Source: Halichondria panicea
Taxonomy: Eukaryota; Porifera; Demospongiae; Suberitida; Halichondriidae
Assembly: GCF_963675165.1 (NCBI RefSeq)
Contig: NC_087384.1
Location: 4,767,182 to 4,831,181, forward strand
Length of the DNA: 64,000 nt
Direction: 5' to 3'
The notes beneath the pieces were generated by a model, which saw nothing but the letters and a program-made list of their open reading frames with translations, had not been told where the DNA came from and made no database searches. Each line of letters begins with the position of its first letter. Within the stretch, counting starts at the first letter, position 1. The position numbers and the translations under genes are program-made. Shown piece after piece: positions 30,890-63,644 of this stretch.

Positions 30890-32368
30890 ATGACTTTGTT
30901 GATCACGATTGGTACTCTCTCTTCATTCTGGGCTGTTCTGTTCCTCCTAGACCAGCTCATAAGAAGATACAGACCATGGAAATCGGCCTACCTTCAACGT
31001 CTTGAAGATTGCGGTCTCAGTCTCTCCTTCGCTCATGTTAAGTGCTACACTACCAAGTTTAATAAATTCTTTCACACCATTGGGAACAGTAGCAGGACTG
31101 CTTGTCGTCTATGGTTTGGACTAGGCGTGCTGACGGGAGTGTTGCTCATGATAACGTCAGTTGCCGTCCTCATGTACACTCTGTTTCAATTCATATTCAG
31201 TAAAGTCTCAGAAGATGGAACTCACTCACATCAAGTCTTAACTCCTGTGATGCCCGGTGTTAATCTACCATGGAACGATATCGCTTACTACCTATTTACC
31301 CTGACTGTGTGCGGTGTGTTTCACGAGGCTGGCCATGCTTTGGCTGCTTCGACAGAACAAGTCACTGTGACTGGTTTTGGTGTGTTTGTGCTCTTCCTCT
31401 ACCCTGGTGCATTTGTGGATCTTCATTCCGATCATCTGAGTGTGATTTCACCTAAAAGGCAATTGAGAATCTACTGTGCAGGAGTTTGGCATAATACAAT
31501 ACTTGTACTGTGTGCACTCGGTTTGTTATGGTGTATGCCCTATATACTCTCTCCATTGTACATGTCTGGTATTGGAGCTGTTGTGACATCACTTCCCGAA
31601 GACAGTGTTTTGGCTGGGAAAATTCGACCGGGAAGCGTGATCACTCGAGTCAACTCATGTCTTGTTACTACTGATGAAGGTTGGTATAGTTGTATTATGG
31701 ATATTGCAAACAGACCACAAAGAGGATACTGTGTACCCAATGAAATGTTAACTGGCAGAGAAGCTTATGGGGTGAACGAGACAACGGTTGCTGACGATGG
31801 AACGATTGAATGTTGTAAAGAACATTTAGACTCTGATATCTGTTTTCACATATTCTACAGCAAAGGACGACATAGTCAATACAAGTGTTTAACAGCAAGG
31901 GCTGTATCAGCGAGAGAAATGTGTGGGAGTTCAAGAGACTGTCACGGTGTCTATGAATACGCCTGTGTCTTCCCAGCTATATCCTCTCCAAGTAAACTAA
32001 TAAGAATTTCACATACTGAGGACAAAGATGTATTATTCCTCGGAGATCCATCTGCTCTTCCTTACATTGTATCAACGAGCAGCTTTGTTCCAAGAGTATC
32101 TGTCGCTCCATTGTGGCTACCAGGACTCATGAAGACTCTTTGCACGTACTTTATTTCTCTCTCCAGTGCACTGGCGCTGTTGAACATGGTACCTGCCTAT
32201 TTCCTCGATGGGCAATGGACTCTCTCTGTGTTGATGGAACTTTACTTTGAAAAAAAAATACCAGATGCTCATAAACGACATTTTATTTTAAACTGTGTTT
32301 TAATATTTGGAAGTGTTTTGTTAGGGTTAAATATTTGCTTGGGAATTTGGACACTAATCAATTGGTAA
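30890..32368 (+). CDS. MBTPS2: Membrane-bound transcription factor site-2 protease
   Basis: Intramembrane zinc metalloprotease (M50) of the Golgi, which in animals releases SREBP and ATF6 after site-1 cleavage. A single exon encodes 492 residues (human 519; this protein lacks its long Ser run). The N-terminal membrane segment MTLLITIGTLSSFWAVLFLL matches the human start. The catalytic HEAGH is at 145-149 within a membrane helix, followed by FLYPGAFVDL and QLRIYCAGVWHN. A Cys-rich lumenal, PDZ-like region follows (SVITRVNSCLVTT, ECCKEHL), then LNMVPAYFLDGQW near residue 440, which supplies the third ligand Asp. All catalytic residues are present. The lack of introns is unusual in this window. 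The ATG directly follows a strong splice acceptor, so a UTR or tiny coding exon lies upstream. Confidence 0.95.
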   Translation: MTLLITIGTLSSFWAVLFLLDQLIRRYRPWKSAYLQRLEDCGLSLSFAHVKCYTTKFNKFFHTIGNSSRTACRLWFGLGVLTGVLLMITSVAVLMYTLFQFIFSKVSEDGTHSHQVLTPVMPGVNLPWNDIAYYLFTLTVCGVFHEAGHALAASTEQVTVTGFGVFVLFLYPGAFVDLHSDHLSVISPKRQLRIYCAGVWHNTILVLCALGLLWCMPYILSPLYMSGIGAVVTSLPEDSVLAGKIRPGSVITRVNSCLVTTDEGWYSCIMDIANRPQRGYCVPNEMLTGREAYGVNETTVADDGTIECCKEHLDSDICFHIFYSKGRHSQYKCLTARAVSAREMCGSSRDCHGVYEYACVFPAISSPSKLIRISHTEDKDVLFLGDPSALPYIVSTSSFVPRVSVAPLWLPGLMKTLCTYFISLSSALALLNMVPAYFLDGQWTLSVLMELYFEKKIPDAHKRHFILNCVLIFGSVLLGLNICLGIWTLINW

Positions 32369-36518: not shown

Positions 36519-37624
36519 TTCACCCGGATAAGAGTGATCAGGGTTGAAACTCAACTCTACATAAACACATGCAATAGAATGTTGTGTAAAGTACATAGTA
36601 TAGCACTGTAAATAGATCTCACAATTTTAATATGTATATATAGCGGGTTATTTTCGTATGGTGGAAATTTTAGCATATTGAGCATCATATGAAAATTACC
36701 GCAATAGCTTCAACATCACTATCCTGAGCTGCATGTAGGAATACGAAATACTTAGTTTATGAAAAATTGCACCAACGAAAATTCCCCGCTGTATAGTACA
36801 TATATATATACCTCTTATGTGACTGTCAGAAGCAGTGTTGTTGTACATGTATGTACTCGCATTCAGAGGGGCAACCTCTCGAAAATCCAGAGCGAATGAC
36901 TCTCCACTGGTGTGATTGTAGTAGACCATGAAGCCTCCTCCTCCAATTCCAGCAGAGTGAAAATTGACAACCCCCACACAAAGCTGACCGGCTATCGCAG
37001 CATCCACAGCACTCCCTCCTTTCTTGAGCATTTCCACTCCTGCTTTAGAGCAAGCTTCAGCATCAGCAGCTACAGCTGCATTGCTGTAAGTAGCACTGTC
37101 TTCAGCACTTGCACTGTTGGCATTGGAGACTCCGACACCCACACCAACACCAATACCAACTGCAATCACAATCACCAAGACTACAGCAATGCCTACACCA
37201 ACCAGGGCAAGGGTTTTTGTTGAAAGTGGGCTTTTGGCAGACTTCTCTTCATTTGCCATAGTTAGATCTATAGATTTACTCGAGTACTCTGTAGCTATAA
37301 AAAAAATTTTATGTAAATTATAGTGGGAGGCTTGATTTATATAATTATTAATTTTAGTGATGCGCATGCGCATAACAGGACCGGAGAGTAACCATGACAC
37401 ATTCCACATCCTCCACCAAGAAGCATCTGTTTCATCGCCTGGCCATTGCACTTTGGAGAGGAAATGCCTGCCTGTGGCTTCATCGCCAACAAACTTTATC
37501 TCCTTCAGCGGATGGTATCCGCTAAACTGTATGCCCCCCCTCTTATCTTTTGGTCTGTTGCTTTTGTACATTTGTACTGTTTGATATTACATGATAAAAA
37601 AAAAGTTTGTCGTGTGTACGTGTA

Positions 37625-56982: not shown

Positions 56983-57648
56983 TCTATTGTATAGAACATT
57001 GAAGTGCAAACCCTCGGTGTTAATTTGAGGTTTGCGAGTCTACAGCCTCGAGTCAAAGCCGTGTGTACATCTAGGCCAATGCAGGTTCGAGCTTTTTAGC
57101 TTCTTAGCTTTTGCTCGCTTTTACTCGAAAACGAAGCTTTAATCAAAATATGCCAAATTTAAAACTACTACCACAGTATAAACACAGACAGGTGAGTAGA
57201 CTCAGAATACACAGACACACTATAACCCGTGGCGCCACGTGTTAATTAATGGTTCTGCATGCATGTTCTGTAACATGGGGCAATCGTTTTAATGTTAACT
57301 TGAAGTTGTTTAACTAGCTTTATGCTCACAGCATTGTAGTTGCTCTGCAACATATACTGTAATCGACTGTATATACATGCATGTGTATAGGGAAGAGAAC
57401 ATCACCCTATACCAGCAATGTGTTAATGAAAAAACTACCAGCGAAAAAATTTTAACGTACATATGAATGACGTTGTAACAGACCTATACTCTTGTCCGCT
57501 TTCTTGTTTCTACGCTTTTTAGTGTTTCCCCCGGCCAATCCTAGTAATTTTTCACATTGTAAAGGTTTTTGTGGGTTAACTAATACATTGTATAACATTA
57601 ATGTGATAACATATAATTTTCTGCTTTTTAGCACCTGTAGCCAAGGTA

Positions 57649-60600
57649 ATGGATTGTGAGGAGGAAAGCAAAAGTAACGAGGTACTCACCACTACTAGCA
57701 CACATCCCCATCATAACAGTGCAGATTTAGGAGAGTCTACCGAGTACCGCACTTTACGTAATTGCTACCCAGAATTGGTAGAGCATGTCAAGCTGCAGCT
57801 AACAACAATTTCTTCTGCCCTTTTTTCGAAAAGCTACATACCAAATAATATCCATGAGGACTCAACCAGTGATGGAGTATCAGATGAAAAGAAAGCTAAA
57901 AAATTACTGGATGCAGTGCTAGCGAAAGTAAAGCTCAACCCTGATACTTATCATGGCTTTGTTGATATTCTTGGGAGAGAGGGACCCTGGGCAGATGATA
58001 TCATCAAGCATTTAAAGGACCATTTTCACTCTATCAAATCCGAGATGAAGCAAACCCAACACAAAGGTGAGTATAGACATGCACCTCTGTAAGTGTATGC
58101 TCTAAACTTTATCTCTTAGCGAAAACAGAGTTACAGTTTTATGTAATTGGGGAAGCATGCCACAGTGTAATGCGGGGTAGATTTTCGTGGAAGAGGTTTT
58201 CGTGGAGGTTAGCTTACCCACAAAAGTAACGAATATTTACTCGATGAAAATTATGACCACACCCATACAGTAGAGAGTTTCAATACCGAATGTAAACCAA
58301 TTTCCGAGGCACTAAATTTTCGTGTTTTACGGTCAATCCTCGAAAAACTCAAAAATGTCGTGCCTCGAAAATAACCAGCTACACGGGGGGAAATTCAAAA
58401 TTGTTGGTAACTTTCACAATCTTGCACAGCAAGAACGTGAAAGTGGGCTACGTGTTATGTGCAAGCCATAAACGTGCGTATGCGTTAGTCCCTTTATATA
58501 GAACATAATTATCTTCTTCCCAAATTTTTTGGCTATACCACATTATATACTTTATACTCCTGAAGCCATGCAGGAAAATATTTATACACAATAAATCACA
58601 CGTATCTTACAATTGTCCACAAAAACAATCTCATCATGGCTCGTATGAGCGATTATACGCCCTTGCATGTAAACATAGATTGCTTATTACAGAGGCGCAC
58701 ATGATCATGTGATGCGTGTTCTACCTCTTCTGGTCCCAGCTAAACCAGATTTTTAATGTACTTTGATACGTATCTGGCCGGATATCATATATATAGAATA
58801 TGAAAGAAAAAAATGGATTCAGAAAGCATAATGTGAAATGTAGCCACTTTATATACCATTGCATGGGGCCAAATTCGGCACTGTCCCAATTTAGGGTGAT
58901 CGGATTACTGTATATAGTACTTTCTCCCATGTATAGGCCTGGTTGAGAGAGCAAGTGACACTAAACGAGTGCTTGTCACTGTTGACAATCGTGAAGATAG
59001 CAAAGAAAGACTGTACATCACTGAAAACATTCAAACTCTCCAAAATCTCACCGAAGAAATTCGTCAGATGTTTCAGCTGGACGGGCACTGTATCATCACA
59101 CTTCAAATATGGGATGCCAGCTTCAATGACTTTGTGTCTATCAAAGACATGAATGAGATACAGGACTGTTGCAAGATCAATGTAAGTTTAGTCTTCAGAT
59201 ATTCTTGCATAATTATATAATTTACCATAATTATTGTACAGATCAAACGAGAGTTAAAAAAGTTAAACGCTATAATAACAAGTCGCTCGCGAGGACCTCG
59301 TGTACCAGCAGGCGTTTTTAGAACTTGCAGCAGGGGGGTTCTCAAATTCCTAAAAAATGTCAATTGAGACTCCGTCTGTGTATAAACTGCTGATTGCGCA
59401 TGCTCAATGGGACGTGGTCATGACTAGTAACACGAGCCAATGTACTTTCATTTGCTTAATTAAGAGAATTCGAGACAATTGCTCAGCTAGCTAGACCAGT
59501 ACTAATAGCTAGATTGCATAGTTGCCTGGAAGGGCAGGGGGTGGTGCTCAAGCTCCCAAAGTCTCTCGTTAGACACGCCACTGGGTCATGAGTGGTCAGT
59601 GAAGCACACCCGAGTACTGACAGAGGTCTCCAGAGTATCTATACACCATGCACAATGACATACTCGATTTATCATATAATGCAGTGGTATATAGGTAAGT
59701 CAGTTTTGATAGTTGTACTAGCTGTATTATACATTAAAACTCATATCAGTGCAGCTATGATGCAAACAGAGCTAAAAACACTCTTCAGTCTACAGCATGC
59801 AGTATCATAAAGAGAAACAGAGCTATAGAGAGACACAAAATCTCCAGGGCTTTAGAGAACTACACAGCCTTGCACAAAGAAGAGCTATATATAATTCTGA
59901 CCTCTACCTATAGAGGATGGCCTCATTGACTTATGTCTTTGCAGTTAAGACTTATACACTCGTAACTATATATAGTTAGGTACTACTCACATGATCGTGG
60001 GCAATATACCGTGACCTCGCGAGCACAAAAACTTCAATCGTGAGTATAATAACCTCGATTACCGAGCGACTCGTCACTCGCATTTAACTGTCGTCTGATC
60101 TGTACTGTACTCTCATAATTTGTAAGATGCCTGCATGTGACATCAATATGTTTTGAATGTATAGGCTGCCACCAGGAAGCAAGCACAGACACCTCAGATT
60201 CAGACTCAAGTACGTAATTATCCGAGCTATATCTAAGCGGGGGTTATTAATTATCATCAAATAAACCTTTTTGACTAAATGATTACATCAGTGTTGTGTG
60301 AATCCTGTTCCAATCAATGTCACAGCAAGCTTATAATTTCTTTTCAGGTGGTCTACTGTGGTACTAATATATTCTTGGGCCAATCCAACATGCCTGCGAA
60401 TGTAAATCCTCGTAGGCAAAGCAACACATTTCCTCGTAGCCGAGGAGCTCTTGGTGCTTACATTGTTTATAACAAACTTTGGAAGGAAAGAGAGGTACTG
60501 AAAGTGTTCTTCAAGAATCCCGAAGTAATTCGAAAGTGGAAGTGCAGAAACGAGCCGATGACAACTACCAACATCCTTGCTTGGGCAGCTGTTTGGAATC

Positions 60601-63600
60601 ATCCTTTCCACAGCAATATTATTCCGACGCTCGAAATAACAGAAAATATTGAAAATTCTGACATAAGAGTGCAGTTTCTTGGTATGTAGATTTGACGAGC
60701 ATATAGCGAGTCTATAATAATTATATTTAGTGCTCAACATTGCATTTTGTCTGTAATAGTATATATATATATATATGTATGCATGGACCGGCACAATATT
60801 TTAGAGAGTTTGAGTGTTCTTTATGCTTGTGCTTGGTTCCAGCAGGAGCCGTAATTATTATAGTCAGGAGCCCACAAATAAGAGAAGGAGCGGCTAACTT
60901 CAATGTATACTCGGGGATCATGTTTCGTAATTGCCGGTGAAACTGCATTTCTTTTTATATGGAAGCGACTATAAGTGCTTGCAAACCACAGCCATTGCGT
61001 ATAACACGTGTATAGGGATTCAACTACTTAAGTGACTCGGAAATTAAATGCGGTCATAGTCACTTACGAAATGTGATCCCCATAGTCAGCCGCTCTTTTT
61101 TTTTTTATGGGCTCCTTTTGTAGTCTTGTAATCTTTAAGCAGTGCACTCAAGACCTTCAGAAGTCAGCATTAGGCAAATGGCAGCCCCAGAGCTTAAACG
61201 AGACACAGACACTCCTGAGGCCAGGCAGGCACGTATTTAGCTTACTAATAGATCTACGAGACGCAGACACTGTCATTTAAAATTAATTTTAACTCATAAT
61301 TATCATAGAACAGGGACCTGATATGAATGAACAACTATTATCGTAATAAACGCGGTAACGTACTCTCGCACCCCATGTTATAAATTCTCTGCTAAAATAT
61401 ATGGAACAGTGGTATGGCATCCAACAGTACACGATATCTATTTTACCATGAGCTTCAGTTTTCCCTTTTAAAACAGAGGAATCGAGTGGTTGCTGGTCGA
61501 TGGTGGGCACAAATGCTTCGGGGAAGGACATTACTATGGTACTGGATCTCAGCCGTCACCCTCCTAATGTGCAAAGAAGTCTGGTCATCCACGAGTTTGG
61601 ACATGCCCTGGGGCTCGAGCACGAACACCAGCGCTCAGATTTTTGGGATATTGTCGGAAAGCACATTGATCTTGAGAAAATGAGGAAAGATGCACCGGTG
61701 CAGAGAGCTCCTGAATCTGACGATGAGCAGGGGGGGGTAGGTTTTGAGAAAGACTGGGAGGCAAAAATAGGAGGGGGTGAAGAGGAGTACACCGCTGTCA
61801 AGTCTGAGTATGATTCGAAAAGTATTATGCATTACCGGTGAGTTTAGTTCACCGTTATTTCATGTTAAATTGAAGTACGTATTCTATAGCTTTGATGTCA
61901 AATGGCTCAAAGATGGTGTTTCTACATTGGCTGACATTGAGACACACCCGGATCTGTCTAACAAAGAAAAGAAGTACCTCAAAGCAATCCTCCAGCGAAG
62001 TGGTATTGGGCCACTACCAAAGGAACCATCAAAATTGGACATTCAGGAATTGGTGAAAGCATATGGTATGTTTTTGTAAAAATTATACGGATCTCTTTGT
62101 GCCGGACCAGTTTACACATACTTTTATTTTCAGAGACAACTGGACGTCGTCAGAAACCCCCTCTAGAAATGACAAAAACTTTTCAGAATCCCACTAGCAA
62201 CGAACACGTCACATTGGATGATGCTCACATGGAGGAGAAAGACACTCAAGAGCCCAAAATCTGGACGGGGAGGTCTGTACTGAAAGTATACTTCATGAAT
62301 CCCGAAATTCTTGAGGAGTGGGCAAATGGGACGAGAATCGACAACATCATGACGTGGGCATCTTCTTGGAATTCTCCCTTATACGATCAAATTCCAAGGT
62401 TTGAGGAAACCAAAGACGATTTAACTGCCGACATCCGTGTCAGGTTTTCAGGTGTGCGTGCATGAATGCATTTAGCACTGTTAGTGTAAAATTGTTTCAA
62501 TTTTGATTTTCTGGATGGATCTCATCCAGTGGCGGATCCAGAGGGGGTTCTTTGGTTCAATTGAACCCCCTTTGAGAAAGAAGTGAGTGGGAGGCTCAAG
62601 CAACTAGTTAGCAAGTTGTTCCTTTCTTACTAGCTTTCACATGCACTTCTCACTAACCTTTAGTCCTTGTTAGCCTTGCGAAGCTTTGTCTGTGCAGTTT
62701 CAGTGACTATGAAGGCTAAAAACTCTCCAGCGTAGTGCATGCAGATTGCTTATGAAAAGTGATAACCTTTTTTTTAGGAAAAAATTCGGTGTTTAATGCG
62801 CATGCTCACTGTTTCGAAGAAGTGACGACCTTTTTTTGTAAAATAACAGTCCTTGACCCGCTCAGAGCCCTGGAACCCCGGCCCCCTTTCAAGAATCCTA
62901 GATCCGCCACTGTCATCTATATATTTTCTTTCATGCAGATTCATCTGGTAGCTGGTCTGCAGTGGGTACTGATGTCCAAAAAGTAAAAAAGATGAAGCCG
63001 ACTATGATGTTGGATCTAAAAAGCTATAATCGCTACTTTCAGAGGTACCTTGTCATTCACCAGTTTGGACATGCCCTGGGACTCGAGCATGAACACCAGC
63101 GCATGGACTTTTGGGATGGTATCAGGAAGCACATTGATACAGAGAAGATGGGAAACGACAAAAGCACAGGGAACTACAGTTCGGTGTCATCGAAGGCTTT
63201 CAAAAGAGATTGGCTGGAATTGGGGGTGAAAGCACACAGGGAAAGTGTTATTCCCTATGACCCACAGAGCATCATGCACTGGTGGTAAGACTAATAAATT
63301 CACTTTTGGTTGTTGTGATAATTATATATGCGACTCATGTGAGCATCATACACTTAATTAAAAGTGTCTCGTAAAATGTAAAAAGACTTAATGTAATATT
63401 ATTATACTTGCCATTTTTCTAATCTGTGCGAAATGCCTAAATTATGCATGCATGCATAGGTTTGCCGTCGAATGGCTCAAAGACCCTAAATATCATAAGC
63501 TAGAGAATATCAAGAGTGACTCAAGCCTAACAGATGATGAGAAGAGGTTTCTGGAGGCTATTCATGCAAGGAACAGGAAGTATGTACTAGCCCCCTCGAA

Positions 63601-63644
63601 AAGCGACTTTGAGTACCTTGGAGAGGTTTACAGCCGACTCGGAG
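57649..63644 (+). CDS. CARD-like/UBL protein with tandem astacin-like metallopeptidase domains (3' partial)
   Basis: Exons: 57649-58066, 58937-59181, 60165-60209, 60348-60681, 61477-61837, 61890-62065, 62134-62451, 62939-63284, 63460-63644; the last donor points beyond the window. All junctions are in phase; the 45-nt exon is the least certain. Order: acidic N-terminus; helical death-fold/CARD-like domain (YPELVEHVKLQL ... KKLLDAVLAKVKLNPDTYHGFVDIL); ubiquitin/PB1-like domain (KRVLVTVDN ... ITLQIWDASFNDFVSI); metzincin 1 (LKVFFKNPEV, SDIRVQF, HEFGHALGLEH, Met-turn SIMHY); linker FDVKWLKDG; metzincin 2 (LKVYFMNPEI, ADIRVRF, HQFGHALGLEH, SIMHW); linker FAVEWLKD. No signal peptide or membrane segment, so probably cytosolic, unlike most astacins. 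Metzincin 1 keeps every catalytic feature. Metzincin 2 lacks the catalytic Glu and the Met-turn Tyr. Exon 57632 is open upstream of the ATG, so coding may begin earlier. Substrate unknown. Confidence 0.82.
58160..58384. repeat. Diverged ttttcg/cgaaaa MITE
   Basis: gattttcgtggaa and tttcgtggaggtt at the left; cctcgaaaataaccagcta at the right resembles the inverse of ctggttattttcgagg at 40430. It lies in the intron after the CARD-like exon. Confidence 0.5.
62527..62912. repeat. MITE with cagtggcggatc TIRs
   Basis: cagtggcggatccagaggggg at 62527 is inverted as cccccttt...ctagatccgccactg ending at 62912, flanked on both sides by TCATC. It lies in the intron before metzincin 2. hAT-like elements with this TIR are widespread in animals. 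Confidence 0.85.

Follow-up and report, generated by a model that had tools for sequence, protein, structure and literature searches.

At the heart of apoptosis and inflammasomes lies the recruitment of proteases by death-fold domains. The proteases known in this role are caspases and, among others, the trypsin-like peptidases of bacterial death-like systems. A locus of the sponge Halichondria panicea raises the question of whether a zinc metzincin could be recruited in the same way. We analyzed a stretch of 64,000 nucleotides (hereafter the window; C8:4767182-4831181) from the 131-Mb genome of this sponge (39 contigs), in which an original prediction made from the sequence alone had placed a death-fold-like domain, a ubiquitin-like (UBL)/PB1-like beta-grasp domain and tandem astacin-type metzincins in one cytosolic protein. 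An open, in-frame gene model and recurrent fusions among paralogs bear this arrangement out, and on sequence evidence we regard the death-fold/UBL-metzincin architecture as well supported, both as real and as recurrent. Paralogs were searched for in the window's own genome, and L-numbers below denote loci cut from its C-numbered contigs.

The predicted gene and its exons

The gene was predicted from genomic DNA, with splice matrices built from homologous introns (18 distinct donors and 24 acceptors, the window's own included). It comprises 11 exons, nine inside the window and two just past its end, all with GT-AG introns, and its frame is open over 879 amino acids from ATG to stop. The predicted protein carries, in this order, a CARD-like domain, a beta-grasp UBL/PB1-like domain, metzincin domain 1 (D1), metzincin domain 2 (D2), and a short tail. 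Domain scores were compared with the Pfam curated cut-offs for Astacin (PF01400, 22.5 bits), CARD (PF00619, 23.9 bits), PB1 (PF00564, 23.6 bits), and Death (PF00531, 22.6 bits). The features of the gene are the following:

57649..58066, + strand: exon that carries the CARD-like domain (matched over 57745-58017) and the start codon predicted for the gene, its donor being in phase 1; from the gene model, paralogs, and a structure model
58937..59181, + strand: exon of the UBL/PB1-like beta-grasp domain, without a start codon of its own; from paralogs, PB1 matches below the cut-off, and a beta-beta-alpha-beta-beta model
60165..60209, + strand: short linker exon of 15 amino acids, GT-AG, phase 0 on both sides; acceptor rank 1 of 83
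60348..60681, + strand: N-terminal lobe of D1; gene model and paralogs
61477..61837, + strand: catalytic exon of D1 with HEFGHALGLEHEHQR and SIMHY; Astacin 50.2 bits
61890..62065, + strand: C-terminal exon of D1; gene model and paralogs
62134..62451, + strand: linker and N-terminal lobe of D2; gene model and paralogs
62939..63284, + strand: catalytic exon of D2 with HQFGHALGLEHEHQR and SIMHW; Astacin 29.0 bits; ratio of nonsynonymous to synonymous changes (dN/dS) 0.05 against the neighbouring copy
63460..63644, + strand: C-terminal exon of D2; gene model
64107-64187 and 64300-64430 (L058:389-469 and 582-712), + strand: two last exons, with the stop codon; gene model
57617..57631, + strand: acceptor-like site of a candidate further 5' exon; by eye, with the frame open back to the site

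The four junctions named in the original prediction, 58066^58937 (phase 1), 59181^60165 (phase 0), 60209^60348 (phase 0), and 62065^62134 (phase 1), proved canonical and in phase, and the remaining introns of the window are 60681^61477, 61837^61890, 62451^62939, and 63284^63460. Among nearby candidate sites, the near-consensus CARD donor ranks third of 66 GT sites and the UBL acceptor first of 58 AG sites. The UBL donor is weaker (9 of 74), and the acceptor at 60348 (1 of 28) and the donor at 60210 (1 of 9) both rank first. Position 63644, earlier given as the 3' limit, is not the gene end, as two further exons and the stop codon follow. The C-terminal tail (70 amino acids) had no Pfam match over cut-off and no second copy among the open reading frames of the loci examined.

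The window UBL exon begins at an acceptor and contains no in-frame Met, whereas each of the nine other UBL copies found in the genome carries an ATG at the domain start or close to it, and in four of the nine a stop codon lies just one codon before this ATG. The window UBL therefore requires an upstream exon, and the CARD exon joins it in phase.

Recurrence of the fusions among paralogs

A genome-wide search with the single UBL sequence found six other places, one of them at E 0.6, and an iterated profile run over the loci already cut out brought these to nine, or ten with the window copy. Each of the ten is followed, 0.7 to 2.5 kb downstream and on the same strand, by the catalytic exon of a metzincin. 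Since three of the ten were known only through loci fetched for their metzincin, the unbiased test of this association is confined to the six others of the genome-wide search; all six lie just upstream of a metzincin of the window family.

The CARD exon has at least 150 matches in the genome at E up to 0.27, the best 150 of 210 candidates having been scored, and its top paralog reaches E 5e-20. Of 48 metzincin places, 5 have a same-strand CARD exon within the 4 kb upstream of them; these five are window D1, two places on C7, and two on C1, and they form three clusters. These 48 places exclude 10 C-terminal pieces, a decayed third metzincin copy (D3) next to the window gene, and one canonical-astacin match. 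Random shifts using the 130 listed CARD places on metzincin-bearing contigs (the other 20 of the 150 are on contigs without a metzincin) gave a mean of 0.14 and a maximum of 4 such pairs, and none of the 5000 shifts reached 5. The CARD exon ends in a phase-1 donor in the window and, by eye, in L013 and L061.

Over these roughly 48 places, the window metzincin family is joined in different combinations to CARD, DEATH, UBL, or 2A leaders. In the genome search with the Death profile, the best 150 of 503 candidates were scored. At L024 (C3), a DEATH domain of 38.4 bits shares one reading frame of 222 amino acids with the C-terminal part of a metzincin. Its twin L025 (C3:1436356) has a DEATH domain of 44.2 bits whose frame ends in a stop about 1 kb behind the catalytic exon; because the stretch open in L024 is split over three frames in L025, the L024 frame may read through introns. 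At L013 (C7), a 2A-like leader is in frame with the CARD that follows it; next come an exon that resembles Death but, at 17.2 bits, stays below the cut-off, and then a metzincin. In the near twin of this locus, L059, the frame is broken between 2A and CARD. The leaders lie at the following places:

L013:1390-1446 (C7:4930631) and C7:4954408: canonical 2A-like leader MVKLQLLQLAGDVETNPGP before CARD-metzincin paralogs

We propose that such combinations of CARD, DEATH, UBL, and 2A would be the pattern expected of effectors recruited through death-folds. A CARD at C3:1367491, 5 kb from a metzincin, and DEATH places behind metzincins on C1 and C2, 4.2 to 7 kb away, were discounted as fusions.

Further occurrences of these modules were also observed. 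The search with the 2A leader gave 20 matches at E up to 10, mostly weak, some of which lie a few kb from DEATH places on C10 and C15. Among the matches listed, DEATH exons form a dense cluster at C12:1.04-1.67 Mb and CARD exons another at C12:5.83-6.17 Mb.

Domains of the predicted protein

Structure prediction of the two N-terminal domains, which the original prediction had put forward as a check, gave a confident model for the CARD and a weak one for the UBL. The AlphaFold2 model of the window CARD (alignment of 30 sequences, window copy included) reached a mean predicted local distance difference test score (pLDDT) of 86.5 and a predicted template modelling score of 0.76. A kinked first helix is a mark of the CARD fold, and the model forms a six-helix bundle in which the first helix is split (helices 10-17, 19-28, 30-39, 45-51, 58-75, 78-89, and 92-116). 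Pfam CARD was matched by 7 of the 30 alignment members at E up to 1 (best 2.2e-5) and the next family by 2, and paralog L061 lies narrowly above the CARD cut-off (24.0 versus 23.9 bits). When the CARD family was searched as a profile against the PDB, ICEBERG (E 9e-4) and the caspase-1 CARD (E 0.5) stood below an unrelated top match. From the model we infer that exon 57649..58066 encodes a CARD-like domain, with putative homotypic binding. Across three paralog pairs, CARD dN/dS ranged from 0.41 to 1.48, with few changes.

The UBL model, built from 10 sequences, has a beta-beta-alpha-beta-beta order at pLDDT 67. The window UBL matched PB1 at 17.7 and 17.2 bits (E 0.0036 and 0.005), under the cut-off of 23.6, and one of the ten UBL members matched PB1 at E up to 1. 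In the PDB profile search with the UBL family, UBL5 (E 0.007) and BILBO1 (E 0.011) likewise stood below an unrelated top match. The UBL dN/dS values of two paralog pairs were 0.61 and 2.89, again with few changes.

Five other loci (L010, L012, L014, L015, and L016) contain long open frames of 376-465 amino acids in which the same CARD is followed by a conserved-looking region that, by its look, we take to resemble TRADD-N. The frames of L010, L012, L014, and L016 gave no Pfam match over cut-off when scanned. No TRADD-N-type Pfam match appeared in four pieces of the window or in these four long CARD frames, in scans that included no dedicated TRADD-N profile.

Both metzincin modules of the original prediction exceed the Astacin cut-off, but only D1 has the catalytic residues. 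In D1, the zinc motif HEFGHALGLEHE (HEFGHALGLEH), with its catalytic Glu, and the Met-turn SIMHY are intact. D2 scores 29.0 bits despite HQFGH and SIMHW: the zinc histidines are kept, Gln replaces Glu at the catalytic position, and Trp replaces the Met-turn Tyr, so that D2 departs from the catalytic motif. With HQFGH for HEXXH and SIMHW for SIMHY, D2 is probably catalytically dead. DNA was read for 33 metzincin units, namely the decayed D3 and 32 of the 48 places. The catalytic position shows HE in 28 of them and HQ in 5, and S[IV]MHY is intact in 31, all but window D2 (SIMHW) and D3 (SIMHS). A second HE-then-HQ tandem, with the same phase-1 junction by eye, lies at C3:3.07 Mb. The neighbouring copy of D2 is located as follows:

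L058:1511-2796, C8 just past the window: decayed third copy of the D2 metzincin (D3), with HQFGH; its N-lobe and catalytic exons are frame-shifted

Between D2 and D3, the catalytic exon has a dN of 0.037 and a dS of 0.753 over 63 codons (ratio 0.05), which speaks for constraint on a domain without the catalytic Glu, though D3 is now broken by frame shifts. Over eight paralog pairs, catalytic-exon dN/dS ranged from 0.27 to 1.78, with few changes. A single clade of all HQ domains was rejected by the approximately unbiased test (p-AU 2e-7), and so was a grouping of the HQ pair at C3:1.36 and 1.39 Mb with window D2 and its neighbour D3 (p-AU 4e-6). The test did not reject a clade that unites these same two domains with the HQ domain at C3:3.07 Mb (p-AU 0.216). 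By these tests, the HQ of C3:1.36 and 1.39 Mb arose separately from that of window D2, and the two HE-HQ tandems may share one origin.

Kinship, rival explanations, and proposed recruitment

The window metzincin family did not group with animal astacins. In an unrooted tree that also held 21 bacterial rows (of the 80 loci kept), 16 of the 33 family rows formed one clade (100/100) and seven canonical astacins of the same genome another (100/100); the eighth fetched, L003, escaped the motif used to select the rows. The family profile scored 69.7 bits against bacterial myroilysin and 28.6 bits against BMP-1 in the PDB, and at least 213 relatives were confirmed among at least 591 pattern matches in bacterial and archaeal genomes, with partial-length identities of 24-49% in the 80 loci kept. 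Far below the NCBIfam cut-offs, D1 matched LegP (32.9 bits) and D2 a model named beta-glucuronidase AbsR1 (40.0 bits). Since the tree is unrooted and the bacterial retrieval patterns favour the HEFGH motif, we claim neither a bacterial origin nor a direction of transfer. No metzincin match was found in phage records at E 1e-5.

Viral contigs yielded 12 relatives among 161 pattern matches. Several side observations concern other proteases and enzymes. A cluster of canonical astacins, separate from the window family, lies at C3:4783703-5010224 (about 20 matches at E < 1e-20). Within the window, an open frame of 492 amino acids with HEAGH at 30890-32368 (+ strand) is site-2 protease-like, and a frame at 36696-37586 (- strand) resembles the start of a membrane-anchored gamma-glutamyltranspeptidase, both by eye.

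The initiator caspases caspase-9, caspase-1, and caspase-8 are recruited by CARD or DED. The window protein as predicted shares with them an N-terminal death-fold and a C-terminal protease in one cytosolic chain, with presumably homotypic contact. They are cysteine proteases, whereas the window protein would combine a zinc metzincin with a beta-grasp domain and a second, inactive protease domain. The canonical astacins of animals (M12A; BMP1, tolloid, and meprin) have in common with the window family HExxHxxGxxH, the Met-turn, and PF01400 scores over the cut-off, but they normally have a signal peptide and a prodomain, neither of which is seen in the window model, and seven of them from this genome fall in a separate clade. 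Bacterial astacin-like metzincins (myroilysin and homologues from Pseudomonas and Bacteroidota) are the best PDB profile match, and the window family forms its own clade apart from them.

A comparable expansion has been described in another sponge. In Amphimedon, 357 TRADD-N proteins have been reported, mostly with TRADD-N behind death-like domains and with variable C-termini; the enzymatic effectors of the Death-TRADD-N proteins include caspase, PNPase, and HD, and inactive zincin-like domains and trypsin-like peptidases are mentioned for bacterial systems (Kaur et al. 2021, PMC8195603). Both cases show a large, lineage-specific expansion in which death-like domains stand at the N-terminus and the C-terminal effectors vary, but the enzymatic effectors named in section 10 of that study do not include a metzincin, and no TRADD-N turned up in the scans of the window gene. 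The Dysidea avara genome holds 39 CARD and 128 DEATH genes, and the words protease and peptidase do not occur in the main text of its report (PMC12909245). In sea urchin NLRs, 2A-like leaders are described as splitting the product between the exocytic route and the cytoplasm (Roulston 2016, PMC4981915). The C7 paralogs of the window gene share a canonical 2A, here before a CARD; their cargo is CARD-DEATH-like-metzincin rather than NLR, and the window has no 2A match. In titles and abstract openings, no report of CARD or DEATH fused to a metzincin was found among the matches listed, most subscription journals lying outside the scope of the search.

Taken as a whole, we consider it reasonably probable that the window gene encodes a metalloprotease of the cytosol that is drawn into death-fold signalling complexes and in which D2 serves as a pseudopeptidase. 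Several observations weigh against this. Neither the CARD exon nor the UBL exon of the window had a Pfam match over any cut-off, so that paralogs of the same genome were used, and the UBL structure model is weak. A CARD is not obligatory for UBL genes, since nine of the ten have none within flanks of about 1.5 kb. The CARD dN/dS of 1.48 in the C7 pair and 0.98 in the C1 pair points to either diversification or relaxed constraint. The D2-D3 ratio rises to 0.25 in the N-lobe exon and 0.27 in the C-terminal exon, with uneven dS (catalytic 0.75, N-lobe 0.79, C-terminal 0.20), and the other HQ pair, L044/L048, has a dN/dS of 1.78, so that constraint does not extend to Glu-less domains in general. 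Upstream of 57649 another 5' exon, coding or non-coding, is likely because a strong-looking acceptor (ttttctgctttttag, cut before CACC) lies 17 bases 5' of the start codon and the frame stays open between the two (by eye); no such exon was found. Finally, the C7 paralogs carry a type of 2A leader that elsewhere sends part of the product to the secretory route.

Three other explanations were weighed. It appears unlikely that the locus holds two neighbouring genes, namely a CARD-only protein at 57649-58092, acting as a decoy or adaptor, and a separate metzincin gene beginning at the UBL exon or later. In favour of it, the CARD frame, if left unspliced, stays open until a stop at 58092, coding seems to begin with the UBL exon in nine other copies, and many CARD exons of the genome lie away from metzincins. 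Against it, an in-frame Met is lacking from the window UBL exon, whose acceptor is top-ranked, the CARD donor is near-consensus and in phase, and C7 and C1 hold further CARD-metzincin pairs, likewise with phase-1 CARD donors (by eye). The window gene may also be a chance assembly of shuffled exons that is decaying into a pseudogene, part of a rapidly evolving set of duplicated exons that retains little function. The intact 879 amino acids of the window copy, the mostly silent differences of the D2-D3 catalytic exon, and the retention of HE in 28 of 33 units make this pseudogene scenario highly improbable, even with the neighbouring D3 frame-shifted, several paralog places fragmentary or carrying stops, L059 broken between 2A and CARD, and some paralog pairs at dN/dS near or above 1.

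We also assign a low probability to a secreted or dually targeted protease, in which a hidden 5' exon with a signal sequence or 2A leader would let the product work partly extracellularly. CARD, DEATH, and UBL are intracellular modules, and the UBL-first paralogs start at or near the UBL. The absence of a signal peptide, claimed in the original prediction, holds for the window model, whose N-terminus has no signal-like stretch and which has no prodomain, and for the nine other UBL copies, but is qualified by the likely upstream exon. The 2A pattern D[VIL]ExNPGP had no match in the six frames of the window, where a motif split by an intron would escape. On the other side stand the acceptor-like site just 5' of the start codon, the leader upstream of the CARD in the C7 paralogs (in frame in L013), and the divided product of the sea urchin leaders. 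In a simple count rather than a trained predictor, hydropathy over 11 residues reached at most about 2.0 in eleven paralogs, nine of them UBL-first and two CARD-first (L028 2.02, L037 1.94), and 2.39 in the 2A-led C7 copy; the latter value fits the dual targeting described for the sea urchin leaders (PMC4981915).

If the window gene does encode a metalloprotease recruited through its death-fold, the N-terminal CARD, and perhaps the beta-grasp domain too, would dock the protein, by contact of like with like, onto a signalling complex whose components come from the very large set of CARD and DEATH proteins encoded in this genome. Docking would concentrate the active metzincin D1, which would then cleave cytosolic substrates, and D2, with zinc histidines but no catalytic Glu, would hold the substrate or restrain D1 as a pseudopeptidase. 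We infer recruitment, protease activity, CARD polymerisation, control by proximity, the location in the cytosol, the substrates, and an involvement in immunity or in cell death. More tentatively, and with the odds in our view rather against it, the family might form a metzincin counterpart to caspases: cytosolic zinc proteases that join CARD/DEATH signalling filaments alongside caspases or in their stead, are regulated by a tandem pseudopeptidase and, in some members, targeted through a 2A switch, and serve as executioners in immunity or allorecognition.

In the predicted proteins of this sponge, a metalloprotease known mainly from secreted enzymes would take the place of the caspase, and it appears to have been joined more than once to CARD, DEATH, and beta-grasp modules. 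If active, it would bring a second chemistry to death-fold signalling, one that should escape caspase inhibitors, and the HE-HQ tandem at two loci would offer a natural test case for control by a pseudopeptidase.

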